Positions 26,493-60,477 of a stretch of 64,000 nucleotides of DNA are shown in pieces (within the stretch, counting starts at the first letter, position 1; the number at the start of each line of letters is the position of its first letter). The stretch is from the NCBI RefSeq assembly GCF_005311025.1, contig NZ_CP031747.1:620001-684000 (forward strand), in the 5' to 3' direction. This DNA is from Alcaligenes faecalis (GTDB taxonomy: Bacteria > Pseudomonadota > Gammaproteobacteria > Burkholderiales > Burkholderiaceae_B). Position numbers and translations under genes: made by a program. The notes beneath the pieces were generated by a model, which saw nothing but the letters and a program-made list of their open reading frames with translations, did no database searches and had not been told where the DNA came from.

Positions 26493-26510
26493 ATGGATAT
26501 AGTAAAGTGA
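26493..26510 (+). CDS. Five-codon leader ORF overlapping the DUF262 start
   Basis: ATG GAT ATA GTA AAG TGA encodes MDIVK. It starts 3 nt after the GGAGG hairpin, where the Shine-Dalgarno would direct ribosomes. Its TGA overlaps the GTG start of the DUF262 gene (GTGA), so the large gene would be reached by reinitiation. Confidence 0.45.
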   Translation: MDIVK

Positions 26511-27700
26511 CGACTCAAACATACGCTGCTTCAGAAGAACTTGCTGACGAAGGGGTAAATGCCGGTGTCGAGAGGGACGAGGCGGAACATTTATCAACGC
26601 ACGAGCCTTTCGACCCAGCATCCATATCCATTTCGTCTAAGATCGTTGCATTGGATACCGTGCTGCGTCGTATCAGGAACTCGACTATCAAGCTCGCACC
26701 GAACTTTCAGCGTAATTATGTCTGGGACGATCAGCGGAAGAGTTTGTTGATTGAGTCTATGATGCTGCGAATTCCGTTGCCAATGTTCTATGTTTCGGAG
26801 GGCAAGGACGGCGTCTGGGAGGTCGTGGATGGTCTGCAGCGGCTAACTACGATTCGCGATTTTATTCTTGGGCAGGATGCCGACGGAAAAGGCTTTGCGT
26901 TGAAGGGGCTCGAGTTTTGGGGGGAGCTTTTCGATGGCAAAAAATTTTTTGATATTGAAAAAAAAATGAACGTACCAAGAATTATTAATAATATTATGGA
27001 GTCCGAATTGTCGTTCACCATAATAAATCCTGGGACGCCCGAGAAGGTCAAAAGGAATATTTTCAAAAGAATTAACACGGGCGGAATGCGCCTATCTGCT
27101 CAGGAAATCCGTCACGCGCTTTATCAAGGTGAGGCAACTGATTTGCTTAAATATCTCGTTAATTCAAATGGATATAAATCAGTTATAGGTGAGACGGTGA
27201 AGGATAATCGAATGGCTGGGCGCGAGTTAATTATACGTTATTTGTCTTTTAATTTAAGGGGCTGGCGGTCTTTTAAAGGCGATATGGATTCATTTATCTC
27301 GGATACTATGCGTTTTATAAACGGAGATATTAAAATTGACCAAGCAAAGTCATATGATCGGGCGCTAGTTGATTCTAAGTTTCAGTTGGCATTGTCGCGA
27401 AATAAAAAGCTATTCGGTGATCATGCTTTTCGACGATCGCGAGGTGATCAGCGTCGTACACCTGTGAATAAATCTCTTTTTGAAATTTGGATGTATTGCT
27501 TCTCAAGGATATCCGATGAGTTTTTTGAAAATATTATTTTTCGAAAAAAAGAATTCCAGGTTAAATATCATGATTTACTTGATTATGATGACGATTTTAT
27601 CGATTCAATTGGAAGGCATGGTGGGAACCTTGTCGGTGTGAAAAATAGATATACCAAAGTTATTGAATTGTTGAACGAGTTTAGGCCGAGTAATGATTGA
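26507..27700 (+). CDS. DUF262-family (GmrSD/ParB-like) protein
   Basis: 397 aa from GTG 26507, the only in-frame start before the conserved domain. An acidic 35-residue N-terminus precedes the DUF262 core: IKLAPNFQRNYVWDDQRK, SLLIESMMLRIPLPMFYV, the signature VDGLQRLTTI (DGQQR in most members) near 107-116, and FKRINTGGMRLSAQEIRHAL. DUF262 proteins share the ParB/GmrS fold and are often NTP-dependent nuclease parts of defence systems. No GmrD-type HNH domain is attached. It overlaps the ATPase gene by 8 bp. AT-rich in its second half, suggesting transfer. Confidence 0.8.
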   Translation: MTTQTYAASEELADEGVNAGVERDEAEHLSTHEPFDPASISISSKIVALDTVLRRIRNSTIKLAPNFQRNYVWDDQRKSLLIESMMLRIPLPMFYVSEGKDGVWEVVDGLQRLTTIRDFILGQDADGKGFALKGLEFWGELFDGKKFFDIEKKMNVPRIINNIMESELSFTIINPGTPEKVKRNIFKRINTGGMRLSAQEIRHALYQGEATDLLKYLVNSNGYKSVIGETVKDNRMAGRELIIRYLSFNLRGWRSFKGDMDSFISDTMRFINGDIKIDQAKSYDRALVDSKFQLALSRNKKLFGDHAFRRSRGDQRRTPVNKSLFEIWMYCFSRISDEFFENIIFRKKEFQVKYHDLLDYDDDFIDSIGRHGGNLVGVKNRYTKVIELLNEFRPSND

Positions 27701-28772
27701 TTCCATTCAAATAAACGCGTTTAAATCCTTTAGATCGTGTAAGGTCAATCTTGGTCGATTAACTGTTCTAGCAGGATTGAATAATTCTGGGAAAAGTAGT
27801 CTGATACAGGCGATTCGAATGTGTTTAGCCGCTCGGGATGTTAGTAATCCGTATATTGATGGGTATGGAGGCTATAGTGAATTGAAATCCCGATCGTCTG
27901 CAATTGATGAGGTAATGTCAATCTCGCTTGAGATTAAAGGAAATAAAACTGTTCTAAATTTATTTGAATCGAAGCATGAGATTGTTCATTCTGAGATGCT
28001 ACCTCTCGCACAGTTTGTTTGCGCGGATCGTTACGGGCCACGCGTCCAATTGCCAGCAATGAGGGAGGATATTGCCGCGATGAGCGTGGGCGTTCACGGC
28101 GAATACACGGCCCATTACGCGTCAATCCTTGAACGAATGATCGTAGCCGAGCCTTTGCGCTATACCGACGTCGTAGCCAACACCCTCAAGCATCAGCTAA
28201 CGAGGTGGATGAGTGAAATTTCTCCTGGCATCAAGCTCGATTTTGATGTTTTAAAAAAGTATGACGCGTCTCAGTTGCAAGTGGACGACGCTAGACCGAC
28301 AAATTCCGGATTCGGCATTAGCTACGTCATGCCAATAGTACTCTGTCTTCTGACAATGTCAGGGACGATGGGAGAAGACGACTCTGACTGGCGCGTTAGA
28401 TCTTGGTTCACCTCTTTGCAACAGCAAGGTGGTTTACTTTTAATCGAGAACCCCGAGGCCCATCTGCATCCGCGCGGCCAAACTTGTCTCGGTCAGTTGG
28501 CAGCCCTTGCATCTGCTTGCGGCCTTCAAGTAATTGTTGAGACACATAGCGATCATTTCATAGATGGTATTCGTATCGCAGTGAAACACACTGACTTCGT
28601 TGAGCATAGCGATATAGCAATAAAATATTTTGCAAAAAACGTTGATGAGGTCACGGAAATAGAAGAAATAGAGGTGCTGCCAGATGGGAAACTGTCGAAA
28701 TGGCCGAACGGCTTTTTTGACCAAATGTCCATCAATCTTCGTAAGCTGGCCCAAAAAAATGAAAAAGGCTAA
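27693..28772 (+). CDS. DUF3696-type AAA ATPase
   Basis: 359 aa. ABC/SMC-like ATPase: Walker A GLNNSGKSS (about 29-37), a long middle insertion, NSGFGISYVMPIVLCLL as signature region, Walker B with LLLIENPEAHLHPRGQ near 249-264 and a switch motif VETHSDHFIDGIR. This is the AAA_21/DUF3696 arrangement, related to ATPases of OLD and PARIS-like systems. No TOPRIM or nuclease domain is fused. Overlaps both neighbours (8 and 14 bp), so all three genes are translated together. Likely the sensor or motor of the system. Confidence 0.82.
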   Translation: MIDSIQINAFKSFRSCKVNLGRLTVLAGLNNSGKSSLIQAIRMCLAARDVSNPYIDGYGGYSELKSRSSAIDEVMSISLEIKGNKTVLNLFESKHEIVHSEMLPLAQFVCADRYGPRVQLPAMREDIAAMSVGVHGEYTAHYASILERMIVAEPLRYTDVVANTLKHQLTRWMSEISPGIKLDFDVLKKYDASQLQVDDARPTNSGFGISYVMPIVLCLLTMSGTMGEDDSDWRVRSWFTSLQQQGGLLLIENPEAHLHPRGQTCLGQLAALASACGLQVIVETHSDHFIDGIRIAVKHTDFVEHSDIAIKYFAKNVDEVTEIEEIEVLPDGKLSKWPNGFFDQMSINLRKLAQKNEKG

Positions 28773-29661
28773 GCTAATTCTCGATGAGCTTGCGTTTTCC
28801 AGATTGATTTTTAATATACGTCAGAACGTAAGCGAACTAGAGTGCATAATTTCCGCAGCAGAATCGGCTAATCTTGAAATAACCGAAATATTTGGAATCA
28901 AAGATGAGGAATTCTACTCTCTTGAATCTGATGGAAAAAATGTAAATGAAGAATTGTTCTCTGAGGAAAACACAGAGTTCCGCGATTTGGTTGTTCGTTT
29001 ACAAATTCTTGTATCGAAATGGAGTTCGCTGCCGGAGAGGGGCGTTGGGGATAAAGATAAAGGTATCGGGGTTTCTATTTTAAAAGCCGACGGTTACGGG
29101 GCGCTACTCGCGAGCACACGACCTGATCCGTCGTGCTGGTGGGACGACGTCAAAATGCATCTGGTTTCGGTACCCGAAGACTTACCCCTAGCGTTACGCA
29201 AGCATTTTATTGAATCAAGAATTGAGCAAAAGTATTTTCCCTTTTTCTGCCAGGGAATGTTCCCAAACCTTTATTTTCACGTTTCATCTAATAATTTAAA
29301 AAATCTTGGTGTTTCCTACACGGAACATGCACGATTGATAATTGACCATTTTTCATATCTCAATGATTTTGCGTCGGACCATTTTGACTCGGACGAGGAT
29401 CATATTATTATCGCAAATGCAAGTTCAATGGGAGTGACGATCTCGCCGGAGAGCCCGAAGACTAGAAGAAATTCTGATGCCATGGCAGAGCGTGACATAG
29501 AAATCAATGGTGGAAAATTACGATGTGAATGGCATGCAAAAATAACTGCTACTTGTGGCAGGATTCACTTTTATGCGCGAAAAGGAAGGCCTGAAAAGGT
29601 AAAGGAAAAAACTGGTGCAAGGGTTGTTATTGGGGTTTTGGCGGCCCATCTAAATATTTGA
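28759..29661 (+). CDS. Unknown third component of the DUF262/ATPase operon
   Basis: 300 aa from ATG 28759, inside the end of the ATPase gene. The N-terminal 200 residues are mixed, with aromatic WWDDVK and HFIESRIEQKYFPFFCQG. The C-terminus carries KLRCEWHAKI, CGRIHFYARKG and ARVVIGVLAAHLNI, a His-Lys, Arg-Ile-His-Phe and Gly-x-x-x-x-His-Leu arrangement. I have the impression of similar endings in uncharacterised proteins beside AAA ATPases, and it could be a compact RNase- or RelE-like fold, but this is inference. Most likely the effector of the operon. AT-rich. Confidence 0.6.
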   Translation: MKKAKLILDELAFSRLIFNIRQNVSELECIISAAESANLEITEIFGIKDEEFYSLESDGKNVNEELFSEENTEFRDLVVRLQILVSKWSSLPERGVGDKDKGIGVSILKADGYGALLASTRPDPSCWWDDVKMHLVSVPEDLPLALRKHFIESRIEQKYFPFFCQGMFPNLYFHVSSNNLKNLGVSYTEHARLIIDHFSYLNDFASDHFDSDEDHIIIANASSMGVTISPESPKTRRNSDAMAERDIEINGGKLRCEWHAKITATCGRIHFYARKGRPEKVKEKTGARVVIGVLAAHLNI

Positions 29662-30277: not shown

Positions 30278-31489
30278 TCAGCGGGGCGTGTAGTAGATGG
30301 CGTCCAGTAGCGCTGCGCGCCCCAGCCAGATTTCGGCGTCAGCCGCATTGCGTGGTTGTGGATGCCGCCACCACGCATCTCCATGCATAGGCTCGATGAT
30401 ACGCTGCCAGTAGTTCTCCATTGTCGTTGTGCTTGGGCTGACACCGAAGTTCTCGCATAGGTCCTTTTTATTGGCGGAATCGATGCACACGAATGAATCA
30501 GGTCTCTTCATCGCTAAGAGCCTAGTCGCGCTCGGTAGGCCGCCGATTCTCCCCTCCTGATCGAAGGCTGCTATGAACGCTTCGCAGTAGCGGTCGTAGT
30601 CGTCCTGTGTGACGGCGCCTATCAAAGGGATGAAATCGAGGGCGTCGGAGAGACCTGTTGGTGCTTCGATGACTCGATTTGCGAACGTTCCACTTGCCCC
30701 CATTCTCCCGAAAAGCCCGTAGTTCACGCCTGGCTGCTTGGACTTCTTGGGCCCGAGAGTTCCGGCGACCAGTTTGCGGTCATCCTCGCTCCACTCTGCG
30801 TAAGGTATGCCGGTTGCGAAAAGGGTGCGTGCTTTTGTTAATACTCTAAAACGTTCCTCGAGCAAGTGCGCAGATGGGTGTGATGAGTTTCGGACCTGCA
30901 CGAGGTAATCTGCCCAGCTCATGTCATGTGGCGCTCGCTTAGTATCTGGCTTAGTCGGTGGCTTAACAGCAGCGAACTTGGTGAGCTCTTCTCGTGCTGC
31001 CGCTTTGGCTGCGTACTGGTGGCGGTATTGATAGAGAAATTCGTGTGAGATAGCTTGCGCTCCCCTCCAAGCCTCTGCGATGAAGTGACTGAGTTCTGCC
31101 AGCGCCTCCTCGTCTGAAGAGCCATCCAGCAGGACACTTGCTTCTATGTTGTGGCTCATCGCGGCGTTCGTAAGATTTGGACTACCGACTACGCAGCGGA
31201 TGCGTCGGCCGTTGCGAAAGAGGTAGACCTTTGGATGGAACAGATCGCCAGTGGGTGGAACAAAGGCCGCGGCCCTTAGCGTTGCGGCTCGATCAAGAAC
31301 TTCGGGCTGTGTCTGGAACATGTGAGTACCGATGACGAGGTGCTCAAACTTCGAGCCGTTTGTCATTGCTGCGTCGAAGACTGCGTTCTCGGTGCCCCAG
31401 GCTACTGCCCATTGCATCGCTTCGCAACTCTCGACCAGTGCTATGAGAGTTGCCTGTGTCTGCGAGGCGGATAGGAATTTCACATTCAT
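30278..31489 (-). CDS. Phospholipase D-like nuclease domain protein
   Basis: 403 aa from the ATG at 31489, two bases after the stop of the helicase gene, preceded by AGGA sequences. One PLDc_2-type active-site set is visible near 84-120: FHPKVYLFRNG and VVGSPNLTNAAM with a following Asn-x-Glu (HNIEASVLL). The single motif implies a dimer, as in NucT-like nucleases. The C-terminal 200 residues (RFRVLTKARTLFATG, FVCIDSANKKDLCENFG, LLDAIYYTP) are not recognised. Third gene of the AddB-like/AddA-like operon, so probably its extra nuclease. PLD nucleases also occur in DISARM (DrmC) and other defence operons. Confidence 0.78.
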   Translation of the reverse strand: MNVKFLSASQTQATLIALVESCEAMQWAVAWGTENAVFDAAMTNGSKFEHLVIGTHMFQTQPEVLDRAATLRAAAFVPPTGDLFHPKVYLFRNGRRIRCVVGSPNLTNAAMSHNIEASVLLDGSSDEEALAELSHFIAEAWRGAQAISHEFLYQYRHQYAAKAAAREELTKFAAVKPPTKPDTKRAPHDMSWADYLVQVRNSSHPSAHLLEERFRVLTKARTLFATGIPYAEWSEDDRKLVAGTLGPKKSKQPGVNYGLFGRMGASGTFANRVIEAPTGLSDALDFIPLIGAVTQDDYDRYCEAFIAAFDQEGRIGGLPSATRLLAMKRPDSFVCIDSANKKDLCENFGVSPSTTTMENYWQRIIEPMHGDAWWRHPQPRNAADAEIWLGRAALLDAIYYTPR

Positions 31490-31491
31490 TC

Positions 31492-34400
31492 CTACTTTTC
31501 CTCGTGTTTCTGTTGAGGTGAGCGTGGCGCACTGTTTGGAGAACAGGATAGACGAACTGCTCGTGCAGCGACCGGTAGGTATAGCCATCGCTGTTTCACG
31601 GGTTTCCCGGTCGCATTGAGAAGAGCGTAAGCATAGGACTCGATTTGTGGGCCATGCTCGGCTACTAAATCTTCGTCTCTGTCGGCACCGCCGGGGTTCG
31701 ACTTGTGGTCCAGTAGAATCCAGCCGTTTGATTCTTCTATCAGCAGATCGATGCGGCCGCGGATGCGAGTGCCGTTTGGACCATCTGCTTCTATGGGCAC
31801 CTCGACATAAACGGGACAGTTTGGCCAGCGCTGGGCTATCCAAGCCAGGAACGCTTCGACCTGGGCGCAAACGGCATTCTTGTCCACAGAGTCAGCTACC
31901 GCCCATGCCCTCAGAATGCGCTCTATGTCTGGGCTTGGAACGTCACCAAGGACTGCGGCGCGTGCAATGCATAGATGAAGTGCCGTGCCCAACGATGCCA
32001 TATCGGGCTTGCCAGCTAAGCTCAGTCTGACGCCTATGGTGTCGGTTTCGGTGGCCTTGAACAGACCGCCTGAGGAAGAGCTCGGTTGATGCCACAACGG
32101 CTCAGCCTGCACGCGTGGTTTAGGTCTGAACCAGTAGCAATCCGAAGATATCTTGGCAGGCGGCTCCACTGTACAGTCATTCTTGTTCCAAGACTGTGAC
32201 TGTCTGGAGATTTGTTGTCCATCTGGCAGCGCCAAGATTTCTGAGTCGCCGAATAATAGTGCGCCTGCGTCTTGAATCTCGTTAACCCAAGCTCGCCCCG
32301 GTCCGCGAGGACGAATGAACGAGACCGCGACATTTATATCGCGAGCGCGGGTCAGGCCGACATACAACAGGCGTTTGTTCTCCGCTAGAGCTTCAGCTTG
32401 CATGGCTTGACCAGTGACACTAGCCTCGGCGTTGAGGGCAGCCTGGGGCTGGGACCGTTTACCCCAAGTTTTCAGCCAGCAGTGGACGAAGCGGTTGGCA
32501 AGTGGCTGCTGAGGATCAAAGTCACCAACAGTCCTAGCACGGACGCCCCAAAGTGAACTGCGTGCCGTCGCATCAAGGCTTGTCAGTATGGCGACCGGCC
32601 ATTCCAGGCCCTTGGCTCCGTGATAAGTGAGGATCGAGACGGAGTTGTCTGACGACGTAGCACGATTGTCGTCCTCCTCACTAGAGAGTTCGTCCAGCCA
32701 ACGCAGCATACTGCTGACGGTAGCTGGACGCTTTGCGGCAACAGACTCGTCTTCGAATGTTTTGCCGAGCTCTACTAGTGCTTCAACATTGGCCAGTCGA
32801 TTGCGGGCTTCGTGGGGGGAGGAAGACCATTGGCCGACCAGACGGGCGACTTGGGACTCCGCAGCGGCAAGCCGCAGTGCCTCCTGTGGTGTCAATGAAT
32901 TGAGCGTTGGGCGCAGTTCTTCCAATCGGGCTAAAAGTGGATTAGCACTGTCGCCTTTTATCCTCCATTCGTGGGACCTTGCTCCATTCGTGGTGAGGTA
33001 CTGCAATCGGTCTTGGAGCCATGTCTCGACCGGAGTGCCCTCGGAGAGGGTGAGAATCAGTGCTGTCGCGATTGTGTCGGTCGGGTCGTTCATGCGCCTG
33101 AGGCAAGCCAGTACGTAAATGGCTTCTGCGGTCTCCAGCAGGCCAGAACGCGGGCTGGCGGATGGAATCCCCCATTGCGTGAGCGACGTGACGGCAGACT
33201 CGACTTGCTCGTTGTAGCGACACAGCACTCCAATATCGCCGGGCTGGATCGGACGGAGCTTCTTGGTTTCTTTATCTTCTACCTTGATTCCGGATTCCAG
33301 TAATTCACGAATGGCCTGTCCAAGGCCCAGATAGTCGGTGTCGTTCCGGCTACTCTCAAAGTTCCAGTTGATCAGCGCTGCCTGGTTTGGGATGTCCTTT
33401 CGGAACGGCTGCAAATGAACCTGTGCAGGGGTTAGATCAGGTTCGAATGCCGACTGAAATACGCTGTTAGTTAGCGAGACGAGGCTCTCGATGGAGCGCC
33501 TAGACGTGTCTAAGGCCTTTCCTACGGCCCCGCCCCAGTCCTTGATTGCACCGAGGACACCTGTGATCAGGCTTGCGTCCGTTCCGCGGAATCCGTAGAT
33601 TGCCTGTTTGGGGTCACCGACCCAGACCGACCGCTTGGCGAGTTTAGCCAACTCTACGAAGAGCGCCAGTTGAAGGGGGCTTGTGTCCTGGAACTCATCG
33701 ACCATGATGAGGTCCAACTCTGCTGCCAAGACTTCGCGGACGGTAGCGTTTGCTCTTAGTGCACGCAGCAGCAGGATCTCCTGGTCGCTAAAGTCAACGG
33801 CACCCAGGGCCTTTTTGGACTGCTCATAAGCATCTAGAACGTCGGCTGCGAGTTTAAACAACAGGTCTAGATAACGACGGACCTCGGTATGAAAGGTCGG
33901 GTGAGTTTCGTGGGCCTGGGCAGCAGCTTTTACAGGTTCCAGTATGTCTCTGACCTTGGCGCCAGCGTCAATCCCAGCCGCGCCAATCCAGTCAGGCCAA
34001 TTCCAACGGTCCTCACGGAAAACGCGGTTTAGCTTCTGCAGCCCTTCGAGTCCTTTACGAAGGTTGTCTGCAACCTTAGTACCGGCAGCCTGTTGCTCTT
34101 CGACATAAGTTACCACCTTCTGGTGCGCTTCATTCAGCGCGGCTGTCAATGCCTCAGTTAGACCTAGATCTGTACTTGGAACTGGCCAGTTTGCGAGCAT
34201 AGAGTCTGCATTCTGAGCACCCATTGTGCTAAGTGCCTCTGGCGCTATATCGTTGTCAAGTGCGGCCTTGACGATACCCTCTAAAGTTTTCGACCAGTCT
34301 GCTTGCTCGATGCCAAATCGCTCGGTGAGACGAACCAACTCTGCTTGCTCGGCTGTGTCCATTGACTCTGCCAGGGTGGCTTTGAGCAGCCGCTTGGATT

Positions 34401-34725
34401 GGCCTTGGTTCAGGACAGTCTGATCGGGGGACAGACCCAGCTCGAAGCAAAAGCGTTTGAGCATCTGGCCACAGACGCTGTTGACGGTACCTAAACGGGC
34501 CTGACCAATGGCTGTGGCTAGGTCAATTTGCCCTTTCTCGAGAAGCCAGGAGCGGGCTCGTTCGCGAAGCTCTGTAGCGGCCTTCACTGTGAAGGTTGTG
34601 GCTAGGATGGCATGGGGTCGAGCCGTGCCGGACTCGAGGGCTTGGGCGAGCGTTTCAGTCAGCTTGTAAGTCTTGCCGCTACCAGCGCCTGCACTGATGA
34701 ACTCGATGTTACGTATCATTCCCAA
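31492..34725 (-). CDS. UvrD/AddA-like helicase-nuclease
   Basis: 1077 aa. Superfamily 1A helicase: Walker A SAGAGSGKTYKL (11-22), motif II DLIMVDEFQDTS near 340, motif III VWVGDPKQAIYGFRG, and motifs V/VI SILTYHGAKGLEWPVAIL and KRLLYVGLTRARDINVAV. The C-terminal 150 residues form a RecB-type nuclease: TALHLCIARA, GRIDLLIEE and WILLDHKSN, with DHK where AddA has DYK. Shorter than B. subtilis AddA (about 1230 aa). It overlaps the AddB-like gene by 10 bp. In the family it unwinds and degrades linear DNA from double-strand ends. Its mobile location suggests a defence role instead of host repair. Confidence 0.85.
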   Translation of the reverse strand: MGMIRNIEFISAGAGSGKTYKLTETLAQALESGTARPHAILATTFTVKAATELRERARSWLLEKGQIDLATAIGQARLGTVNSVCGQMLKRFCFELGLSPDQTVLNQGQSKRLLKATLAESMDTAEQAELVRLTERFGIEQADWSKTLEGIVKAALDNDIAPEALSTMGAQNADSMLANWPVPSTDLGLTEALTAALNEAHQKVVTYVEEQQAAGTKVADNLRKGLEGLQKLNRVFREDRWNWPDWIGAAGIDAGAKVRDILEPVKAAAQAHETHPTFHTEVRRYLDLLFKLAADVLDAYEQSKKALGAVDFSDQEILLLRALRANATVREVLAAELDLIMVDEFQDTSPLQLALFVELAKLAKRSVWVGDPKQAIYGFRGTDASLITGVLGAIKDWGGAVGKALDTSRRSIESLVSLTNSVFQSAFEPDLTPAQVHLQPFRKDIPNQAALINWNFESSRNDTDYLGLGQAIRELLESGIKVEDKETKKLRPIQPGDIGVLCRYNEQVESAVTSLTQWGIPSASPRSGLLETAEAIYVLACLRRMNDPTDTIATALILTLSEGTPVETWLQDRLQYLTTNGARSHEWRIKGDSANPLLARLEELRPTLNSLTPQEALRLAAAESQVARLVGQWSSSPHEARNRLANVEALVELGKTFEDESVAAKRPATVSSMLRWLDELSSEEDDNRATSSDNSVSILTYHGAKGLEWPVAILTSLDATARSSLWGVRARTVGDFDPQQPLANRFVHCWLKTWGKRSQPQAALNAEASVTGQAMQAEALAENKRLLYVGLTRARDINVAVSFIRPRGPGRAWVNEIQDAGALLFGDSEILALPDGQQISRQSQSWNKNDCTVEPPAKISSDCYWFRPKPRVQAEPLWHQPSSSSGGLFKATETDTIGVRLSLAGKPDMASLGTALHLCIARAAVLGDVPSPDIERILRAWAVADSVDKNAVCAQVEAFLAWIAQRWPNCPVYVEVPIEADGPNGTRIRGRIDLLIEESNGWILLDHKSNPGGADRDEDLVAEHGPQIESYAYALLNATGKPVKQRWLYLPVAARAVRLSCSPNSAPRSPQQKHEEK

Positions 34726-37334
34726 CCTCCTAACAAAACGAGGTGGTCACGGTCCCATTTGCTTGGGCCATTAACCTGAAGAGTTCCACCTGGGCCTTGG
34801 AACTCGTCGGATGGGTTTTCCGGAACGACGTCGATGCGCCCTGCGTCCAGTTGTTGCTTGCGCCAATTCCAAGTGATGCGTGCGCGGTCTAATAGTGTGG
34901 CGGTAGTCACGTCGTCTGGAGGGTTTCTAACCTGAGCCTTTGGGAATATGTCGGCGGCAGTGACATACAATGCGCCGCTTTCCAGGATGAAGTAGCCAAG
35001 CGCGGCGGGTGCGACACCTTTCATTTGCTCGATGAGGCTTGAGTAAAGTGCCAGTTGCAGGTGGTCGCCAGAGCGAAGCAAGCCGGCATAGTAGTTGTCG
35101 CTTCGCCACTTCATATCCAGGGCGGCAGTTCGTTTGTCGCCAAACGTGATAAGAAGGTCAATCTTGCCAATCAGTGGGATTGCACCTAAGGTTCCGATGC
35201 ACTCAACTTCGGTTTGCACCTGTATTGCCCCAGCGGATTTCAGGTGATCGAGGAGACTGCAGATGGCTCCCTCGCAGATCTTGCGGAAGTGCTGTTGGCT
35301 TACACCTGCACCTTGCATCAGTAATACAGCCCCTTCGGTCAGCAGGAGCCTGTCTGCTTCAGTACGAAACCAGGCTGTTGCAGCGTTGTTTGACCAAGAC
35401 AAGGCGTCATTGTGGGCGAAGAGTTTCTCGAAAACTCGGTGCGCAAGGATACCCAGCAGGCGATTGTCTTCCTCCACTGCTAGGGCGTAGCTGGGTTCTA
35501 GATTGGCCACACGTTTCAGTGCAAATAGGGCGGGGTTATTGAAGAGTTCGTTTAGCGTAGTAAACGACTGTTCGACGTTTTCAAGCTGTACAGGGGTAGG
35601 TAGACAGATTTTACTCGGTGTTGCGGGAAGAGGCTGAGGCAGAAGCACTTCGGCCATTGTTCCGAGAAGTGAGGAGCCAAGTGCGGTATCCAGATCGATT
35701 GCGCCAGACTCGATGTTAGGTGCAAGCTTCTTCAGAAGCTGGCGAACCGGATGCACTTCTGCATTAGGGGGTGGGCAGACTAGGATGAATCTCTTCTTCG
35801 CGGCAAGTAGTGGTCTTAGCCATTGTTGTGTCAAGGAAACTAACTCACGTGCCGGGTCTCGCAGTTGGACACCCTGTTGGGTAAGGGCTTCCAATTCCGA
35901 GGGGGACCAAGGAAGTGGGGGGGGAAGGGCAGGCGTAGATGGTATCCACCAGATAACTTCGTCGGCTGCTTCGACGCATGCGGCTGCCACCCTTGCTGAA
36001 CGCATGCAGCCCACATGTGGCATCGCAGCGGGGTTGGTTGCATCTGCAGGAGTAGCGTGGGAGATTAGCTGTTCAATTTGCCGTGGCAGCACGCTCGCCA
36101 GTCCTTGTCGAGCTAGCTCGGTCAGTGCGTCATAGACGGCGGTACATTGGCGATATGCCGCCGAAAAGTTCGCGTCAACGGCGGAATCTCCAGTGAGGCG
36201 ACGTCGCATCGCTTCCTTAAGCCGCTCGATCCGAGCGATGAGCTCATCCGTGGGCACTCCGTTAGAGCGAGTCCAACGTTCGGATTCCAGCCAGAATTTG
36301 ATGTTTTCTGCGATTTCTTTGGCGTCCTCACCCTCGGCTAGTTTAATCTTGGCAGCAGTCCAGGCTTCGCCGCCAATTCCAGGCTGCTTGGCGAGCGCGC
36401 GAGCGAGTGTGCTTCTTGCTCGACGGCTGAATGGGCCGACAGGATGGGTCAAAAAATCTAGCAATCTATTAATGTCGAGCGGATCCCAGCACATTTCTAC
36501 GGCAAGCGGTAAAGCCTGAAGCGCTGGTCGAAGCGGACTGGGTCGTTCGAAACCACAGTTGACCCCGCCTGCTGCGACAAGAGATACATCCAGGGAGTCG
36601 CCAGTGTTTTCGGCTAGGATCAGCCGGTCACCTGGTACGTACGAGTGTTGTGCCCTCAACCAGTTCTCGGCAGTCGTGGCTGTGAGGGAGTGCACAAACA
36701 AGACGCTACCATCAGTTGGCGCGGCCAAACTACTTGCAGCGCCACCAGCCAGCGCGGTTAGGGCCCTGTCTTGCAATTCACGGAGTTGGCCTTCGCCCTG
36801 AGGTTCAGGAAGGCGGAGTTTCACATTAGGTAGGCAGTCAAGCACGTTTTGCCAGAGGAGTGGGAAGTCCTCTGGCATGTCAACTAGCGTGACTGACTTG
36901 ATGGGGCCAGAGCTGGACTTGCGTAACGCTTGTACCACAAGGTGCAAGCGTTCTGCTTCTCCGTGCGGCAGTACTTCGAGCGCAGCCTTTTCGATAGCGG
37001 CAAGTTCCTGGAGTCGTACAGGGTGCATTGGCTTTGCGTTGCCATCCCAGCCACCGAGTCGCCATTCGTCTCGCCAGGCTAGCAGGCGCGCAGCCGTACC
37101 GATGCTGTCGGCTTTTAAAGACTCACTGTAGAAACGTGAGTCGTTGTCATGTTTGCGAAGCAATCCGGAGTAGACCGCAACACGTTTGGCCTTAGACGCT
37201 TCCGGTGCGCTTAGGCCAAGGTAGGTTTCAAGTAGGGACAAAAATCCGAGGCGGCCGACGACCGGTGCGTTGAAGAAGTTTGTTGGTGATGGACCCTGGC
37301 GTGCGTCCAGGAACAGGCCAAAAGTGATATGCAT
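34716..37334 (-). CDS. AddB-like PD-(D/E)xK nuclease/inactive helicase subunit
   Basis: 872 aa from ATG 37334 (MHITFGLFLD); ATG 37361 and TTG 37370 extend it slightly, and no start has a strong Shine-Dalgarno. The N-terminal 600 residues show the divergent helicase-like organisation of AddB without a Walker A. The C-terminal RecB-family nuclease has AHRVFEKLF, IGKIDLLITFGD, TAALDMKWRSDNYYAG and LQLALYSSLIEQ, giving the Asp, D-x-K and Gln-Tyr positions. The cysteines of AddB's iron-sulphur cluster are not evident. First gene of a three-gene operon with the AddA-like and PLD genes, coupled by overlap. Confidence 0.75.
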   Translation of the reverse strand: MHITFGLFLDARQGPSPTNFFNAPVVGRLGFLSLLETYLGLSAPEASKAKRVAVYSGLLRKHDNDSRFYSESLKADSIGTAARLLAWRDEWRLGGWDGNAKPMHPVRLQELAAIEKAALEVLPHGEAERLHLVVQALRKSSSGPIKSVTLVDMPEDFPLLWQNVLDCLPNVKLRLPEPQGEGQLRELQDRALTALAGGAASSLAAPTDGSVLFVHSLTATTAENWLRAQHSYVPGDRLILAENTGDSLDVSLVAAGGVNCGFERPSPLRPALQALPLAVEMCWDPLDINRLLDFLTHPVGPFSRRARSTLARALAKQPGIGGEAWTAAKIKLAEGEDAKEIAENIKFWLESERWTRSNGVPTDELIARIERLKEAMRRRLTGDSAVDANFSAAYRQCTAVYDALTELARQGLASVLPRQIEQLISHATPADATNPAAMPHVGCMRSARVAAACVEAADEVIWWIPSTPALPPPLPWSPSELEALTQQGVQLRDPARELVSLTQQWLRPLLAAKKRFILVCPPPNAEVHPVRQLLKKLAPNIESGAIDLDTALGSSLLGTMAEVLLPQPLPATPSKICLPTPVQLENVEQSFTTLNELFNNPALFALKRVANLEPSYALAVEEDNRLLGILAHRVFEKLFAHNDALSWSNNAATAWFRTEADRLLLTEGAVLLMQGAGVSQQHFRKICEGAICSLLDHLKSAGAIQVQTEVECIGTLGAIPLIGKIDLLITFGDKRTAALDMKWRSDNYYAGLLRSGDHLQLALYSSLIEQMKGVAPAALGYFILESGALYVTAADIFPKAQVRNPPDDVTTATLLDRARITWNWRKQQLDAGRIDVVPENPSDEFQGPGGTLQVNGPSKWDRDHLVLLGGWE

Positions 37335-37801: not shown

Positions 37802-38122
37802 TCAGTCATGGTTGATCGCAAAATCTTCACGTGAATGACCTTCCGATTCGATCTGCTTGATCCACGTGGGTATGCGCCCTCTACCACTCCAGGCATGCCC
37901 ATCTGGATGCTGATATCTGACTTTTGATACCGCTTTGGATCGTGAAGGTTTGTGATGAAACGCCTGGGCAATATCTTCAGGTGTTAGGTCGTGCTCTTTC
38001 ATTGAACGAAGAATATCGCTAATTACCTTAGATCTTGTTTTTTGTTTTAATTTATCGGCATCACGTTTCAAACGAGTAATTTCTTTTCTGATTTCGGTGA
38101 TGGAGTTAAGTTTTTTTCTCAT
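37802..38122 (-). CDS. H-NS-like nucleoid silencer
   Basis: 106 aa from ATG 38122, preceded by AGAGGA at good spacing. A helical, Arg/Lys-rich oligomerisation region (KEITRLKRDADKLKQKTR) is followed by a linker and the H-NS DNA-binding motif YQHPDGHAWSGRGRIPTWI at about 75-93. The W-x-G-R-G-R hook inserts into the minor groove of AT-rich DNA. Mobile elements often carry such proteins to silence their own AT-rich cargo and limit fitness cost. AT-rich modules at 13, 27 and 44 kb are natural targets (inference). Confidence 0.88.
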   Translation of the reverse strand: MRKKLNSITEIRKEITRLKRDADKLKQKTRSKVISDILRSMKEHDLTPEDIAQAFHHKPSRSKAVSKVRYQHPDGHAWSGRGRIPTWIKQIESEGHSREDFAINHD

Positions 38123-38175
38123 GCGTTCCTCTTGATTGTCTCTCAACCGGCTAAACGGAGAGGTGGCCCTTCATT

Positions 38176-41080: not shown

Positions 41081-41887
41081 CTAGGCCGATTCGCTGTTGG
41101 TGCTTAGTCGAGCTGCGTCCGGCGATGTGAATGGGCTTTCACAGGATCCGCAGATAATCTTCAACTTTGGTTTACCCCAGACGCTTGTGCCGCATGGGCA
41201 GACGTACTTCCATCGGTTTGAATTGCCGGTGGGTTTTACTGGCATACTCTCGTCGCCCTGGGCGGCGTTGCTTGTGGAGGTGGCACTGGATGCCAAAGCT
41301 TGAGTGAGTGCTGGAAGTGCGATGTATGGAGGAGCTCCACCTCCTACTGAGATGTCCAAGCGCTCAGCGGCGCTACGAGGTGCGTCGGCATGTGAGAAGC
41401 GATCGTACCAGGTCAGACAAAATGACTGGGTGAGCAGATCGGCGCATGCTTTCACAAATTTGCCATCCTCAATCGCATAATCAGCCATGAGTTGGCCAGT
41501 GCGAGCGCCACCAGGTTGGCCAGTCGAAGAGGGCATCAGTCCAATCGCTTCCATCTTCGAGGCCCACTCTTCATTGTGATACCTGCCACGCCCAGGCTTG
41601 CCGAAATGGAATTGCCAGAGATGGCACATTTCATGTACCAAAGTTTGCATAGTTTCGATCAAGGGCACGACAGCAAAGTAGGCCGGGTTCATCGCTATTT
41701 CGTCTGTATAGGTGCCTTGAGCATCTACAAATCGCTGGCTTGAGAAATAGCCCATTGAGCGTTTCTCGCGTTGCAAGGTAATCAGGCAGTTAGGCAACCT
41801 ACCGTCGTATAGGGCGCGATTGAAATGATCGTAGGCTTGTTGCAGCTCGGTATATGTTTGATGGGTCGGTACCGTTTTCTTGTTCAT
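41081..41887 (-). CDS. SprT-like zinc metalloprotease
   Basis: 268 aa from ATG 41887. SprT-like core: LQQAYDHFNRALYDGRLPNC, GYFSSQRFVD, the zinc motif TLVHEMCHLWQFHFG near 86-100 (HExxH) and HNEEWASKMEAIGL. The C-terminal zinc ribbon WKYVCPCGTSVWGKPK plus ICGSC is intact. In eukaryotes related Spartan proteases clear DNA-protein crosslinks; ICE and plasmid copies may act on the relaxase-DNA adduct or on host proteins (inference). An inverted repeat lies just upstream of the start. Confidence 0.82.
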   Translation of the reverse strand: MNKKTVPTHQTYTELQQAYDHFNRALYDGRLPNCLITLQREKRSMGYFSSQRFVDAQGTYTDEIAMNPAYFAVVPLIETMQTLVHEMCHLWQFHFGKPGRGRYHNEEWASKMEAIGLMPSSTGQPGGARTGQLMADYAIEDGKFVKACADLLTQSFCLTWYDRFSHADAPRSAAERLDISVGGGAPPYIALPALTQALASSATSTSNAAQGDESMPVKPTGNSNRWKYVCPCGTSVWGKPKLKIICGSCESPFTSPDAARLSTNSESA

Positions 41888-41908
41888 GGTGGTCTTAATG
41901 TATGAATT

Positions 41909-41924
41909 TGTATTGCACAATACA
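41909..41924. promoter_or_regulatory. Palindromic operator candidate
   Basis: TGTATTG and CAATACA form a perfect 7-bp inverted repeat with a 2-bp spacer, 21 bp upstream of the SprT-like start and within the divergent intergenic region. Size and placement fit a dimeric repressor site. Confidence 0.4.
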
Positions 41925-42039
41925 CTACATTTGTCGTCAAAGCATTGGCCGAATTTGAGGCTGAAGATAGTTAAACTAGTCACTGCGTGAGATCTCGTGC
42001 TCTTGAAACTGCAGTTTTTTAAAGCCTATATGGATTGAA

Positions 42040-45434: not shown

Positions 45435-46352
45435 CTATTTCTTCGCTGCATCGGCTTCTGCTACTAAAAGAATGCTGCTAGCAGTAAGGTTGAGTGCATA
45501 ACGAGCAAAATATTCTGGTACGACGATACTATCTGTGCCTTGGCCATGCCCTCCCAACTTATTTCGTATTGTCGGCACACCACTTTCTAGTAACGACCGA
45601 ACGGCACCCATTTGGGACTCCAAAAATGACGGAAGAAGCCCTTCAGTCAAACATGTATTGATTAGTGCTTTGGCTGTATCTGTAGACTTTATATTCCATC
45701 TACGTTTTGAACAAATTGCCTTTAGTGTGCTTTCAAATGATTTCAGTGCGTCGACAAGACATTCCTTGTATCGTCCATGACGGTAATGCTCATGGGCCTT
45801 TAGGAATTCTTCGTTTGCTCCCTTGAACTTACCATCACGGAGGATCGCCAGAGTTGGCTTAACAGCTTCAGAGTGGAGGTAGTCCGAATCGATGCGTATT
45901 AATTCAGACGACTCGAACTGAAACCCTATTCCATGCTCTTTAAATCTGTCGTTTAACTCTTCAATGGCATCGTTTGGCCCGATTTTCGTCCTACTGTTGC
46001 TGGGATATTGATCTCTGACATAAGTGTCAATAATTTTGAATGAAAGCTCTATTACATCAAGGGCCCTTTCAACAGACTGTTCAGCCAAGAAGAAACTGAA
46101 AACAGACTCATCGAATGAACGAGAGTATTTAGTTAACTCGAACAGTCCATACTCACGGCATAGCGTATTGTTAATAAACTCATATGTTTTTGATGCGTGG
46201 TTGCTGCTGACGCTGTCCAGGCCAAGCGCATCGCGAATGATGTGAACGATCTGAACCCGAAGTGCGTTCGGCAGATCATCATAGCTATACACATCAGGAA
46301 ACTCACCTCGAAGCCTACGCTGACGTTTGGAGAAAAGATCGATGATTCCCAT
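45435..46352 (-). CDS. AbiJ-like abortive infection protein (STM4504/CBY_0614 family)
   Basis: 305 aa. The N-terminus MGIIDLFSKRQRRLRGEFPD with YDDLPNALRVQIVHIIRDAL is the AbiJ_NTD4 signature of this family. The C-terminal region is the helical Abi_C/HEPN-like domain, with FEATURES KAHEHYRHGRYKECLVDALK and VPTIRNKLGGHGQG; the R-x5-H in RNKLGGH fits HEPN RNases. Expected to cleave RNA and abort phage growth. Single gene, convergent with the methyltransferase, adjacent to the end of the conjugation locus. Confidence 0.8.
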   Translation of the reverse strand: MGIIDLFSKRQRRLRGEFPDVYSYDDLPNALRVQIVHIIRDALGLDSVSSNHASKTYEFINNTLCREYGLFELTKYSRSFDESVFSFFLAEQSVERALDVIELSFKIIDTYVRDQYPSNSRTKIGPNDAIEELNDRFKEHGIGFQFESSELIRIDSDYLHSEAVKPTLAILRDGKFKGANEEFLKAHEHYRHGRYKECLVDALKSFESTLKAICSKRRWNIKSTDTAKALINTCLTEGLLPSFLESQMGAVRSLLESGVPTIRNKLGGHGQGTDSIVVPEYFARYALNLTASSILLVAEADAAKK

Positions 46353-46574: not shown

Positions 46575-48203
46575 TTAATTTTTTCCACCAAATAATTTTC
46601 CCAATAAGGGAGGTCTACCGGAGGCTGCCGCAGAACCCCCATTCCTGTTCATTAGCTCATCTATGCCGCCTACCACTCTCAAACCAGCCCAGGCCATCAT
46701 TGAAGACCAAATGACAGGTAGCCCGACATACAACGACAATAAAATCGTGTTCAGAACCATTCGTTTATAGCCTGCTGGAATCGCTCCTTTGCCGATCATC
46801 ATGGCTTCTTGAACAAATATATTGCCCAGAGCGCCAGGGTACATGGCGTTGATGAGATGACCATCGATCCAGGTGGCGATGTACCACATCGACGCCCACA
46901 TCTTGATGGTAAGAATGGCCATAGCACCTAAGAACAACACCCGAAGACTGAAGCCGCTGACTAGGGTGGCCAAGGGAAGAAAGGCGTAGATCCCCATGAG
47001 GACCAATGCCTGGATCATGGGTAACGAGGTCACCAATGGCATCCATGCCATGCTGGCCATGAAAGCTGCCCCACCAACACCGAGCGTGCTCCCAGCGCCC
47101 GTTATCGTTCGACCTGCGACTGTAGCAGCGTCATAAGGGTTCCCCATCATTTGGTCAAAATCAACAAAGACGGGATTGGCTGCGGTTGATGCTAGCCGAG
47201 CCACTTCATCCTTTTGCTTATCGAACGACGTAAAGGTGAGGACGTTCGCCGCTCTGGATGCGAACGCTCGAACACCAGGGCTGCCATCGATCAGCTTTTC
47301 TCGCAGTTGATCCTCCCACCATTGCTTGCAGGTTGGGCGACCAAACTCTGGGTTTACTGCGCCGGTGACTTGTGGGTCCACGTCGCTCGATGGGTCGTAG
47401 TACTCCGTATCGCGGGAGTAATCGATCGCAAAACCAGTGACCGGAGCACGGCTGCGCATGGAGGCGTAATACCCAGGCTCAGTTCTGAAAAACTGGCTGC
47501 CCATCCAATCCACATCAGTTGGCCCATAGTCGGTATTAGATTCTGCCAAGATCGAGGCACCTGATGCACTGATTCTGCTGCGATCGCTGCGCAGATACTG
47601 ACTCCGTGCCGGGATAAAGCATTCGCTATAGAAGCGTTGCACATCACCGAGCAAGGCGGGGTCTTCGATTGTGGCATTTTTGGCCATATCCTCCAGAACC
47701 CGCATATCAGAGCCGGAGTTATTCATGCCATTACGAAAGGCATTGTTTATCCCAGAGCTGATGGACATGATGGAATACCACCATAGGGGCACGTTACTCA
47801 GCCCACTGGCCTGGCTCATACTTCCATCAATAGCGTCGCGCAGTGCTGTATCGTAGGTGCTACCGCTGGCTCCAGGCGTAGCCTCTACAGGGTTAGGGTT
47901 GTCAATTGAAGGAGGGGGCATGTACGACAAGCGCGCATACGTTAGGCTTGTGATGGGCGATGTGAAAAAGCAGACCGACATCACAAATAGCATGACGATG
48001 AGCTGTGTTTGTACGCTTTTGATGACACCCATTACACCGATGTCTTGCATTCCCCGCTGGCCAGCTTCGCGCCAGGCATTGAGAATTATCACCAGAAAAG
48101 GGATGACGACCAAACCCGTACCGGTGACTATCTCGCCAAAAATATTGGCAAAAGCCCACCCGTAGAAAGTGGTAAAGAGTTCGAGGTAACTGTCTAGTTG
48201 CAT
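46575..48203 (-). CDS. TraG N-terminal-like mating-pair stabilisation protein
   Basis: 542 aa. Multi-spanning inner-membrane protein: hydrophobic segments near 15-40, 62-85 and four more at 370-520, with a large periplasmic loop (90-360) between. This arrangement matches the TraG N-terminal domain (TraG_N) proteins that end the conjugation locus of PFL-type ICEs. It stabilises mating pairs and may mediate entry exclusion. Last gene of the transcript; no clear terminator was found before the AbiJ-like gene. Confidence 0.82.
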   Translation of the reverse strand: MQLDSYLELFTTFYGWAFANIFGEIVTGTGLVVIPFLVIILNAWREAGQRGMQDIGVMGVIKSVQTQLIVMLFVMSVCFFTSPITSLTYARLSYMPPPSIDNPNPVEATPGASGSTYDTALRDAIDGSMSQASGLSNVPLWWYSIMSISSGINNAFRNGMNNSGSDMRVLEDMAKNATIEDPALLGDVQRFYSECFIPARSQYLRSDRSRISASGASILAESNTDYGPTDVDWMGSQFFRTEPGYYASMRSRAPVTGFAIDYSRDTEYYDPSSDVDPQVTGAVNPEFGRPTCKQWWEDQLREKLIDGSPGVRAFASRAANVLTFTSFDKQKDEVARLASTAANPVFVDFDQMMGNPYDAATVAGRTITGAGSTLGVGGAAFMASMAWMPLVTSLPMIQALVLMGIYAFLPLATLVSGFSLRVLFLGAMAILTIKMWASMWYIATWIDGHLINAMYPGALGNIFVQEAMMIGKGAIPAGYKRMVLNTILLSLYVGLPVIWSSMMAWAGLRVVGGIDELMNRNGGSAAASGRPPLLGKLFGGKN

Positions 48204-48218
48204 GGCTTATTCCCCCAC

Positions 48219-48620
48219 CTAAGCCGTAATGAGCGCTATTGCCAAGCGCCAGATACGGTCGAGGCCAATCGGGATCAAGATTAAGTACAGTGCGATAAAT
48301 GCGGCCACCTTGCGGCGGCTGGCCAGCACGGCGTCATATTCGAATTCTTGAACAATATGTCTGGCTTGAAGCCAGCGAACGACGGCTGGCCAGCGCCCGA
48401 TGATGAGTAGTGCTGCGATACATTGAGCGATAGCACCGATATCTCGCACTGACGTCGTTCCCTCAAGCAGGGTCAGGAGTTTATGTTCCTGGCCGATAAA
48501 TGACTGTGCTAGTGCGCCGAGCAGCCCAATGAGCAGCAGAAATCCGGTCAAACCGATGGCGAGCCATATCAGTGCTCGCCACAGCCAGCTGCGTTTTTTG
48601 GTGAGAGAGACTTGTGTCAT
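48219..48620 (-). CDS. Small membrane protein of the conjugation locus
   Basis: 133 aa. Hydrophobic segments at about 12-40, 58-75 and 105-128 separated by basic loops. Its start overlaps the stop of the PFL_4711-family gene. Found between the PFL_4711 and TraG-N genes in this ICE type; specific role unknown. Confidence 0.65.
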   Translation of the reverse strand: MTQVSLTKKRSWLWRALIWLAIGLTGFLLLIGLLGALAQSFIGQEHKLLTLLEGTTSVRDIGAIAQCIAALLIIGRWPAVVRWLQARHIVQEFEYDAVLASRRKVAAFIALYLILIPIGLDRIWRLAIALITA

Positions 48621-50008
48621 AGTCCAGGTACCCGTCCACCCACTGCTGGGGCAGGATCAACAGGGTTGCCACCCGGTACGTTCAGTGATTGTGTGTCAAT
48701 GGCGGACTGGGTGTTGATGATCGACAATGCCGTCTGGGACGTCAGATCCTTGCGGATCCGAGCCTCATACATCAAATCGTCAATGTAGCCACTTAAGCGA
48801 TCGACCGAAGCCTGGGTGTTTTGGATGGCATCTCCTGCGGCCGTAACCTCCGGTAAGGTCAGACCTGTCATCAACACGCTACGCGCCACCAGTGCTTTAT
48901 TGATCACCCGGTGCATCGCCATTTCCTGAGCAATGCGGTTCACAGCGATGCTGCGGGTGTCAGGCGGCATTGCTCGTAAGGAGTCAAGCAACTGAGGAGA
49001 CACGGCAAAGCCAGGAGCTGAGATTTCTGCGAGGTCGGCATAAGTGGCTGAGTTCGATGGGTTGGCCATTGCCTCAAGCTTAGGCTGGACGAAATCGACT
49101 TCGGCTTCATATTTGGGCCCCAGGCCGCTGGAGGTCACGACCGTGGTTGGGGCAGGGCAGTGATGTTGCCCGCAGGTATAGACCTTCTGATCCCCCAGGA
49201 CTTCGGTTGTCCATTGGGCAAGTTCTGCCGGTGATTTAAACGCACGAACCAGGCGAGAGTTTTTCTCGGCAGGTGAGTTACTGTAGTCCGTGGTCTCTGA
49301 TGCGGTGATTGGTTTGTTGAGGGTAGCGTTATAGCCTGCCACAGAGAGATCTCGCACCGGCTCAATAGGTCGGCCTCCTACACCCCCGGCATTTTGGCCA
49401 AAGACCCATGGCACCCCGGCTTTATTGGCCTCTTCATTCTTCTCAATGTCGATTTTTGCCTGGTAAATATCACCTTGCGCGGAGGCCTTGATCTTCCAGC
49501 CTTCACCTTTGGCCATCTTGATCCAATCCTCATAGGGGTTCTGCCCCGCTTTGACCATGGCCTCCATCTCTTCGCAGGATTTAAGGCTGGCCCCGAGCAG
49601 GAGATCCACCTTTTGCGAATAGTTTTGAAGAATCTGATACAGGCCTGGCTGTGCGCGTTGCAAGACGTACAAGGGGAGGGCAGCGATACCAGATTGAATC
49701 GCCCCAGTCACCGTCTGGCCCAGGTTGTTGAGGTTGTTCATGATGTTGGCCCAAGATAGGCCTATATCAAACTTGCCACATGAATAGTTCAGTCGAGCAT
49801 TTCCTCCAAAGCCTAAGTTGTGAGCGACCTGGCCGCGATAATTTGCAGAGCCGCCGGGCGAGCCGCCTCCCATTCGGTAATACAGCGAAGAGCCGCGTAC
49901 GGGTTGCGCGTAGGCGTCGGGTATCACGCTCATGGAGGTCAACGCAAGAGCCAGCATCATGGCGGCTGGTTTCAAGCGCAGTGTGAACGGGCATTGTGGT
50001 TGTTGCAT
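48617..50008 (-). CDS. PFL_4711-family ICE protein (TIGR03755)
   Basis: 463 aa from ATG 50008. Signal peptide (MMLALALTSMSVIPDAYAQ) then SLYYRMGGGSPGGSANYRGQ and LNYSCGKFDIGLSWANIMN, typical of TIGR03755. Periplasmic component equivalent in position to TraH/TraF-type pilus assembly proteins (inference). Cysteines (SCGKFD, LKSCEEM, YTCGQHHCP) may need the DsbC-like protein. The region upstream of 50008 in frame overlaps the neighbour's end region and is not used. Confidence 0.85.
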   Translation of the reverse strand: MQQPQCPFTLRLKPAAMMLALALTSMSVIPDAYAQPVRGSSLYYRMGGGSPGGSANYRGQVAHNLGFGGNARLNYSCGKFDIGLSWANIMNNLNNLGQTVTGAIQSGIAALPLYVLQRAQPGLYQILQNYSQKVDLLLGASLKSCEEMEAMVKAGQNPYEDWIKMAKGEGWKIKASAQGDIYQAKIDIEKNEEANKAGVPWVFGQNAGGVGGRPIEPVRDLSVAGYNATLNKPITASETTDYSNSPAEKNSRLVRAFKSPAELAQWTTEVLGDQKVYTCGQHHCPAPTTVVTSSGLGPKYEAEVDFVQPKLEAMANPSNSATYADLAEISAPGFAVSPQLLDSLRAMPPDTRSIAVNRIAQEMAMHRVINKALVARSVLMTGLTLPEVTAAGDAIQNTQASVDRLSGYIDDLMYEARIRKDLTSQTALSIINTQSAIDTQSLNVPGGNPVDPAPAVGGRVPGL

Positions 50009-50027
50009 AGATATTCTCGTCCTTCGC

Positions 50028-51374: not shown

Positions 51375-51383
51375 GAGTGCCCC

Positions 51384-51872
51384 TTAATTTTGGCTGTCAC
51401 GCCAGGCCATAAGCGCCTGGTCAACGTCGATATAGCCAAAGACTACATAGCGTTGGTTGATGACCACCGCTGGTAATCGGTCAATCTGATAACGCTGCGC
51501 GCGTGCCAGGCCGTTAACGGCACTCGCGACCATGGGTTGGATCATTTGTCGTAAGCGGGCTTCATTGTTGGCAACCCATAGACGTGCTTCTGCTTCGTCT
51601 TGTGGCATACCTTCATTCATCTGAGCTTCGAGATTATTCATTGCATCCAAGCGGTAGATGGACAAGGCATAGTGTGGTGAAGTGCTTGGTGTTACCGGCA
51701 TGGCAGTGTTGGCAAACACCTCTACGGTCATGACGCCTGCGTACAGATCTTGGTTAGGCTGTTGCGCAGTCGCTGGTGTGACGACGGCAAGCAGTGCCGT
51801 CGAAACCGCGATGCAAGCCGTGAGACGAGAAACTCCTTTGCTAAGTGAGCGTATCTTGATCATGCGCGACAC
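51384..51872 (-). CDS. PFL_4709-family ICE protein (TIGR03757, DUF1525)
   Basis: 162 aa. Signal peptide ending ATAQQ, then VMTVEVFANTAMPV and LPAVVINQRYVVFGYIDVDQAL, the two hallmark stretches of DUF1525, a thioredoxin-like fold without the CxxC. Periplasmic conjugation factor. Its start overlaps the end of the VirB4-like gene. Confidence 0.85.
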   Translation of the reverse strand: MSRMIKIRSLSKGVSRLTACIAVSTALLAVVTPATAQQPNQDLYAGVMTVEVFANTAMPVTPSTSPHYALSIYRLDAMNNLEAQMNEGMPQDEAEARLWVANNEARLRQMIQPMVASAVNGLARAQRYQIDRLPAVVINQRYVVFGYIDVDQALMAWRDSQN

Positions 51873-56841: not shown

Positions 56842-56856
56842 GCTGTTGTTCCTTTA

Positions 56857-59365: not shown

Positions 59366-59380
59366 ATCGACTTTTCCCCT

Positions 59381-59791: not shown

Positions 59792-59836
59792 AGCTAAACT
59801 CCGTATGGTTTGATGTGTTAAGAAGTCCTGTGAGCG

Positions 59837-60088: not shown

Positions 60089-60110
60089 AAGGAGATCTCC
60101 TGATGCTGCG

Positions 60111-60437: not shown

Positions 60438-60477
60438 TTCTGTCGTTTCTCCAATGTCGTGATGTGAGCGAGAGGCG

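Follow-up and report, generated by a model that had tools for sequence, protein, structure and literature searches.

A stretch of 64,000 nucleotides from Alcaligenes faecalis (NCBI RefSeq assembly GCF_005311025.1, contig NZ_CP031747.1, positions 620,001 to 684,000; hereafter the window, meaning the whole stretch at its full length) was analysed with respect to a cluster of three genes on its minus strand, at 30278-37334. The open reading frames (ORFs) of the window and their translations gave the order AddB-like subunit, AddA-like subunit and PLD-superfamily nuclease, with the following features.

37334-34716, minus strand: AddB-like subunit, ATG start, 872 amino acids (aa); helicase-like part without Walker A and C-terminal RecB-family nuclease (residues about 585-872)
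34716-34719, minus strand: 4-bp overlap of the AddB stop with the AddA start, from the ORF coordinates and translations
34719-31492, minus strand: AddA-like subunit, ATG start, 1,075 aa; UvrD/SF1 (superfamily 1) helicase and RecB-family nuclease
31489-30278, minus strand: PLD-superfamily nuclease, ATG start, 403 aa; single H85-x-K87...N105 site, conserved C-terminal half with no fold assigned

The AddA stop and the PLD start are 2 bp apart in the window. All three reading frames are open, and the ratios of non-synonymous to synonymous substitution (dN/dS) against the nearest relative, Pseudomonas locus L048, were 0.145 for AddB, 0.109 for AddA and 0.131 for PLD. Values of 0.11-0.15 in all three genes suggest that they are real and maintained. 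A promoter and terminator scan of the locus gave fewer sites than shuffled sequences and was not used.

The AddB-like protein was not identified by sequence searches. No Pfam match was obtained up to an E-value of 1, the one NCBIfam match (TIGR02774, 10.3 of 718.35 bits) was far below its cut-off, and the family profile gave four matches among the PDB sequences at E 0.65-0.88, none of them credible. The structure predicted by AlphaFold2 (AF2) from an input of 50 sequences was confident, with a predicted local distance difference test (pLDDT) score of 87.8 and a predicted template modelling (pTM) score of 0.81. The five top PDB matches of this model were AddB chains, which covered model residues 1-872 with Foldseek E-values of 4.6e-20 to 1.5e-19 and Z-scores of 19.1-19.5; the best was AddB 4ceh_B with Z 19.5 over 814 aligned residues at a root mean square deviation of 6.9. 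These were followed by AdnA and then, more weakly, by UvrD-type helicases and RecC, whose chains matched at Z 14.1 compared to 19.5 for AddB. As the five best structural matches are AddB chains, the AddB identity of the predicted fold holds. The nuclease residues H632, D726, D740, K742, Q760 and Y764 are invariant in 87/87 rows of the family alignment. The Walker A pattern is absent from the first 120 aa in all 87, and the AddB-type protein of the host chromosome is likewise devoid of it.

The cysteine content of the family was also analysed, the pattern of one cysteine followed by CxxCx5C being what we take to be the likeness of the AddB iron-sulphur site. The C-terminal CxxCx5C triad was found in 31 of the 87 rows (e.g. 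L008, L011, L009), all of which also carry the upstream cysteine, while the upstream cysteine without the triad occurred in three rows only (L101, L114, L119). By tree group, the triad is present in 27/30 rows of one large group, in 0/41 of the group of the window and in 0/10 Bacteroidota rows, and the window protein and its clade lack the four-cysteine motif. The tree was built from the 81 different rows by a quick method with midpoint rooting and contains several long branches. The iron-sulphur-type cysteines may have been lost in the group of the window.

In the AddA-like protein, Pfam revealed UvrD-helicase (E=1.3e-47), UvrD_C (3.7e-18) and PDDEXK_1 (1.6e-11) domains, UvrD and PDDEXK_1 being above their cut-offs. 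The best match of its family profile among the solved chains was AddA 3u44_A (E=2.2e-54). Against NCBIfam models it scored 180.6 of 707.65 and 150.3 of 860.75 bits, far below the curated cut-offs. With residues counted from the TTG at 34725, upstream of the ATG at 34719, the positions G17, K18, T19, D343, E344, D347 and H917 are invariant in 70 rows, and D993, D1006, K1008, Q1027 and Y1031 are kept in 68-69 of them.

The third protein scored 22.3 of 27 bits against Pfam PLDc_2, below the cut-off. A profile of 13 sequences matched the PDB entries 7clg (E=5.3e-17), 2c1l (E=4.6e-6), a restriction endonuclease which is presumably BfiI, and 4rct (R.NgoVII, E=5.9e-5). The alignment shows one H-x-K...N site (H85, K87, N105), and by analogy with BfiI such a single-site protein would have to dimerise. 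No match was obtained for the C-terminal half. ORFs of 394-427 aa matching solely this half were seen in four loci (L134-L137), and it may be a separate domain. A structure model of the PLD protein from five close sequences reached a pLDDT of only 39.5 and was not used. The original prediction, made from the letters of the window, had read these genes as AddB-like, AddA-like and PLD genes coupled by overlap or a 2-bp gap and endowed with three distinct nuclease sites. The coordinates agree with this; the AddB reading is supported by the AF2 fold and the AddA reading by the UvrD helicase and PDDEXK_1 domains with the match to 3u44_A, and all three sites are present in the predicted proteins.

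The AddB-AddA pair was found to be the recurring unit. A genome scan gave at least 79 named loci of the AddB family, a count which rests on two short patterns and is not a frequency. Among these, 69 had an AddB-like ORF of >=700 aa and 62 of those had 3.3 kb of sequence after AddB. AddA lies directly behind AddB in 56/62 of these assessable loci, 55 by script and L086 by hand, as its AddA ORF begins 402 bp before the AddB end and the limit of the script was 400; the near-duplicates L083/L069 and L122/L102 are each counted twice. The six assessable loci without AddA (L091, L092, L094, L095, L103, L123) are all Bacteroidota. The Bacteroidota AddB-like genes (L091-L096, L103, L123) come mostly from Saprospiraceae and may form a core-genome branch. 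Behind the pair no third gene was constant when the following ORFs of 39 entries, two of them without AddA on the contig, were compared by their length and first residues.

The distribution of the AddB family is sporadic. An AddB-like match was obtained in 14/398 genomes of the phylum, in two cases as a fragment, and none of nine genomes of the same genus matched the mobile family. Among plasmids, 26 records carry the AddB, and 17 of these are typed conjugative. One relative with 29% identity (L130) was observed in viral contigs, where the PLD protein had no relative, and one unannotated gene with 36.2% identity in the phage records (faecal phage MT835507.1, 23847-26456).

The PLD gene follows AddA in 5/51 assessable loci (50 by script and L086), all of them Pseudomonas, and a tblastn search with PLD over a set of collected loci gave no further copy. 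The window and the five Pseudomonas trio loci fall within one AddB clade of eight rows (Shimodaira-Hasegawa-like approximate likelihood ratio test, SH-aLRT, 95), which also holds an Achromobacter locus without PLD (L052) and one whose sequence ends before the PLD position (L049). In the sample of 398 genomes, searched at E 1e-20 for AddB and 1e-25 for PLD and taken to be the same for both, PLD occurred in seven, and both genes together only in the genome of the window. The AddA of the window extends 17 codons beyond the stop of its Pseudomonas relatives, in which the AddA-PLD gap is 37-55 bp; the 2-bp gap is thus due to a shifted AddA stop codon. In two of the six trio copies the PLD gene is altered, lacking the catalytic His in L055 and being split in L051. 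Eight plasmid regions containing PLD relatives (32-44% identity) were read, and none has an AddB-like gene. Five plasmid records, four of Variovorax and one of Sinorhizobium meliloti HM006, hold both genes at separate places, about 100 kb apart in Variovorax SRS16 and with a split PLD about 6 kb from the pair in HM006, and these records weigh against full independence of PLD from the pair. A PLD relative was also observed on a Rhizobium etli plasmid (L019, 6986-10995) with a convergent UvrD-helicase gene, weakly AddA-like at 56 bits, and adjoining McrC-family genes.

As the trio is confined to one clade and the two genes are rarely found together, the trio is a recent local arrangement, in which an unrelated PLD gene seems to have joined the AddAB-like pair only recently. 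The original prediction had treated the trio as the system and had proposed a neighbourhood survey as a check; this survey found PLD absent from most homologous operons, the outcome that the prediction had itself named as speaking against it. The trio as a conserved unit is ruled out by the 5/51 count, the restriction to one clade and the single genome of 398 with both genes.

The cluster is carried, as had been predicted, by a mobile element, an integrative one with integrase and conjugation genes, and its surroundings are rich in defence genes. The original prediction had suggested a DNA-end-directed defence or anti-plasmid system, and a defence role is still plausible for the AddB-AddA pair. 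The other features of the window are as follows.

7043-8251: phage-type integrase, marker of the mobile element
9311-11737, plus strand: AAA_13 ATPase matching the PADLOC candidate PDC-S06, likely defence cargo
13054-14577, plus strand: SIR2-domain protein, likely defence cargo
26507-29661, plus strand: NsnA, NsnB and NsnC genes (PADLOC NsnA 2.7e-122, NsnB 1.6e-91, NsnC 1.6e-70), beside the operon on the opposite strand
37802-38146, minus strand: H-NS-like protein, about 470 bp upstream of the AddB-like gene
41081-41983, minus strand: SprT-like domain protein, among the genes of the element
45435-46352, minus strand: AbiJ N-terminal domain protein, adjoining the conjugation genes
46575-63584: TraG_N, TraU, TraC, DUF2895 and TraG/D C-terminal matches, conjugation genes of the element

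The NsnABC genes are presumably the Menshen defence system, and the H-NS-like protein could silence cargo of the element. The neighbours of the family were analysed in 39 of the 79 loci, picked by hand. Of 142 listed ORFs (those >1,500 aa being passed over), six were left out (four large, one edge ORF and one part of AddA), and some of the remaining 136 may be spurious since they were chosen by length. Among these 136 proteins, 213 PADLOC models matched at E up to 1e-15, including WYL (10 proteins), Gabija, Wadjet, Azaca, Shango, AbiE, cyclase and CARF proteins; integrases (4) and plasmid RepB (2) were present as well. As a control, 20 pieces of 6 kb were taken at even spacing along the host chromosome, and their 86 ORFs matched six models (mad2, mad3, CARF_ADA, DEDDh and two PDC-S48). 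WYL-related ORFs were found in the fetched flanks of 15/69 loci in a search made without control.

The host was thought by the original prediction to possess RecBCD already. No match to recC was obtained in the host genome (recD was not searched), and the chromosome holds at 4.09 Mb an overlapping ORF pair of 886 and 1,140 aa. The second ORF matches the recB and PDDEXK_1 models, and the first was taken as AddB from its position and a C-terminal motif read by eye, so that the host appears, by gene layout and the second gene, to have a chromosomal AddAB-type pair. The AddA of the window is 27-30% identical to the second ORF, in patches, and the AddB of the window has no significant similarity to the AddB-type protein of the host.

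The pair was compared with known systems. With AddAB (3u4q, 4cei and others) it shares the AddB fold along the whole model, the AddA helicase-nuclease architecture, two RecB-family nuclease sites and adjacent genes. It differs in that its AddB is 11-13% identical and has 872 aa against chains of 1,132-1,156 residues, in the missing Walker A (missing also in the AddB-type protein of the host) and four-cysteine motif, in an AddA far below the NCBIfam cut-offs and in the mobile context. With Gabija (GajAB) it has in common a UvrD-type helicase in a small mobile defence module, and the PADLOC GajB models match the AddA helicase core (best E=2.7e-36); membership was rejected since the partner of AddA is AddB-like and matches only DruK among the PADLOC models, with no GajA match, and RecB-family nucleases are present on both subunits. 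DruK, at 25.3 bits over about 100 residues, was the best PADLOC 2.0 match of AddB, which thus has no model of its own there. The PLD protein shares the PLD nuclease half and the H-x-K...N site with BfiI, R.NgoFVII, DISARM DrmC and Azaca ZacB, the last two matching weakly, and differs in a C-terminal half without match. DISARM was rejected at 22.6 of 133 bits against DrmC, the other DISARM genes not being searched one by one, and Azaca at 36.7 bits against ZacB, over profile positions 293-384 of 586 (about 100 residues).

The nearest printed relatives appear to be UvrD-Cas4 fusions and one AddB-like protein with repeats. According to the available part of the first source (PMC5704561), the fusions occur in defence contexts and resemble the pair in combining an SF1 helicase with a nuclease of the RecB/Cas4 family, with WYL and modification genes nearby, but they are one fused protein, and an AddB-like partner is not described in that part. 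The second, in the accessible text of PMC10910872, is likewise a PD-(D/E)XK AddB-like protein with an inactivated helicase domain; it differs by its CRISPR-like repeat array. No array was found at the window locus, where the search gave only short two-copy repeats and an unrelated tandem repeat at 8308. Neither a mobile AddB-AddA defence pair nor an AddB-AddA-PLD trio was among the matches listed in the open-licence literature, whose reach leaves out supplements and most subscription journals.

The gene layout and context, the conservation of the active sites, the pairing and the confinement of the trio to a small clade were computed directly; on these and on the predicted AddB fold, the pair is proposed to be a two-gene mobile AddAB-like helicase-nuclease. 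It would most likely be a defence module acting on the free ends of invading phage or plasmid DNA, a proposal to which we give an even chance. AddAB unwinds DNA and cuts both strands before Chi. In the AddB of B. subtilis, F68 and F210 are Chi-binding residues, and E129 and R629 form the latch pair (PMC4824097). The AddB and AddA proteins of the window would form a heterodimer and bind a free end of the invading DNA, the AddA motor would unwind the DNA from that end, and the nuclease sites of both subunits would cut both strands. The gene context makes a defence role plausible and points to phage or plasmid DNA as the probable target. As speculation, the PLD nuclease may cooperate by making cuts that create entry ends for the pair.

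The proposed defence role is favoured by the predicted AddB fold, the conservation of both nuclease sites and the AddA motor, the pairing in 56/62 loci, the sporadic distribution, the plasmids, the defence neighbours and the host's own AddAB-type pair. Several points weigh against it. AddAB enzymes are repair enzymes. The control was one host chromosome, not other mobile cargo, and the excess of neighbour matches may only reflect defence-rich mobile regions; moreover, what is tallied for PADLOC is models rather than proteins, and the search with WYL profiles was made without a control. As a count of models is larger than the count of proteins behind it and the control was drawn from the core chromosome, this excess is suggestive only. 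The altered PLD genes of L055 and L051 weigh against cooperation of PLD with the pair.

The known enzymes also give rise to a possible, rather unlikely explanation, that the pair serves the mobile element in repair and recombination, as a spare AddAB which processes breaks in the DNA of the element or aids its establishment after conjugation, with no role in defence. AddAB, AdnAB and RecBCD, the closest solved folds, are repair enzymes, AddAB and RecBCD also destroying phage DNA, and the conjugative typing of 17/26 plasmid records fits such an enzyme. The AddAB-type pair already present in the host, the sporadic distribution and the many neighbours matching defence and WYL models argue against it, though the integrases and RepB proteins are among those neighbours too. 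Less probable still is a back-up engine: the pair would step in once the RecBCD or AddAB of the host is blocked by an inhibitor from a phage, such as Gam, and would keep end degradation going. Since the AddB of the window is not significantly similar to that of the host, an inhibitor directed at the host enzyme would not necessarily fit it, and Gabija, OLD and retron Eco6 are described, in the available part of PMC12904381, as defence systems reacting to RecBCD inhibition.

An obligate three-subunit complex with three nuclease sites is regarded as very improbable. The close packing of the genes in the window, their identical order in five loci of Pseudomonas, the low dN/dS of all three genes and the five plasmid records with both genes would suit it. 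They are outweighed by the absence of PLD behind AddA in 46/51 assessable loci, the eight plasmid regions with PLD relatives and no AddB-like gene, the one genome in 398 with both genes, the wider AddA-PLD gap in five relatives and the damaged PLD in 2/6 copies.

Beyond the locus itself, the proposed defence pair may tentatively be extended to a widespread mobile, defence-dedicated class of AddAB, absent from the literature searched, although we hold this broader claim to be doubtful. One large clade of it would work without the AddB iron-sulphur cluster, the enzymes would break down invading linear DNA free of Chi control or would replace a host enzyme inhibited by phages, and PLD would have been recruited in one branch for entry ends. 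If this is true, it would suggest that a machine of core repair has turned into a weapon that can be transferred, its active sites being kept while one large clade lacks the iron-sulphur-type cysteines, and the family would let one ask whether it is Chi control that sets repair apart from defence.

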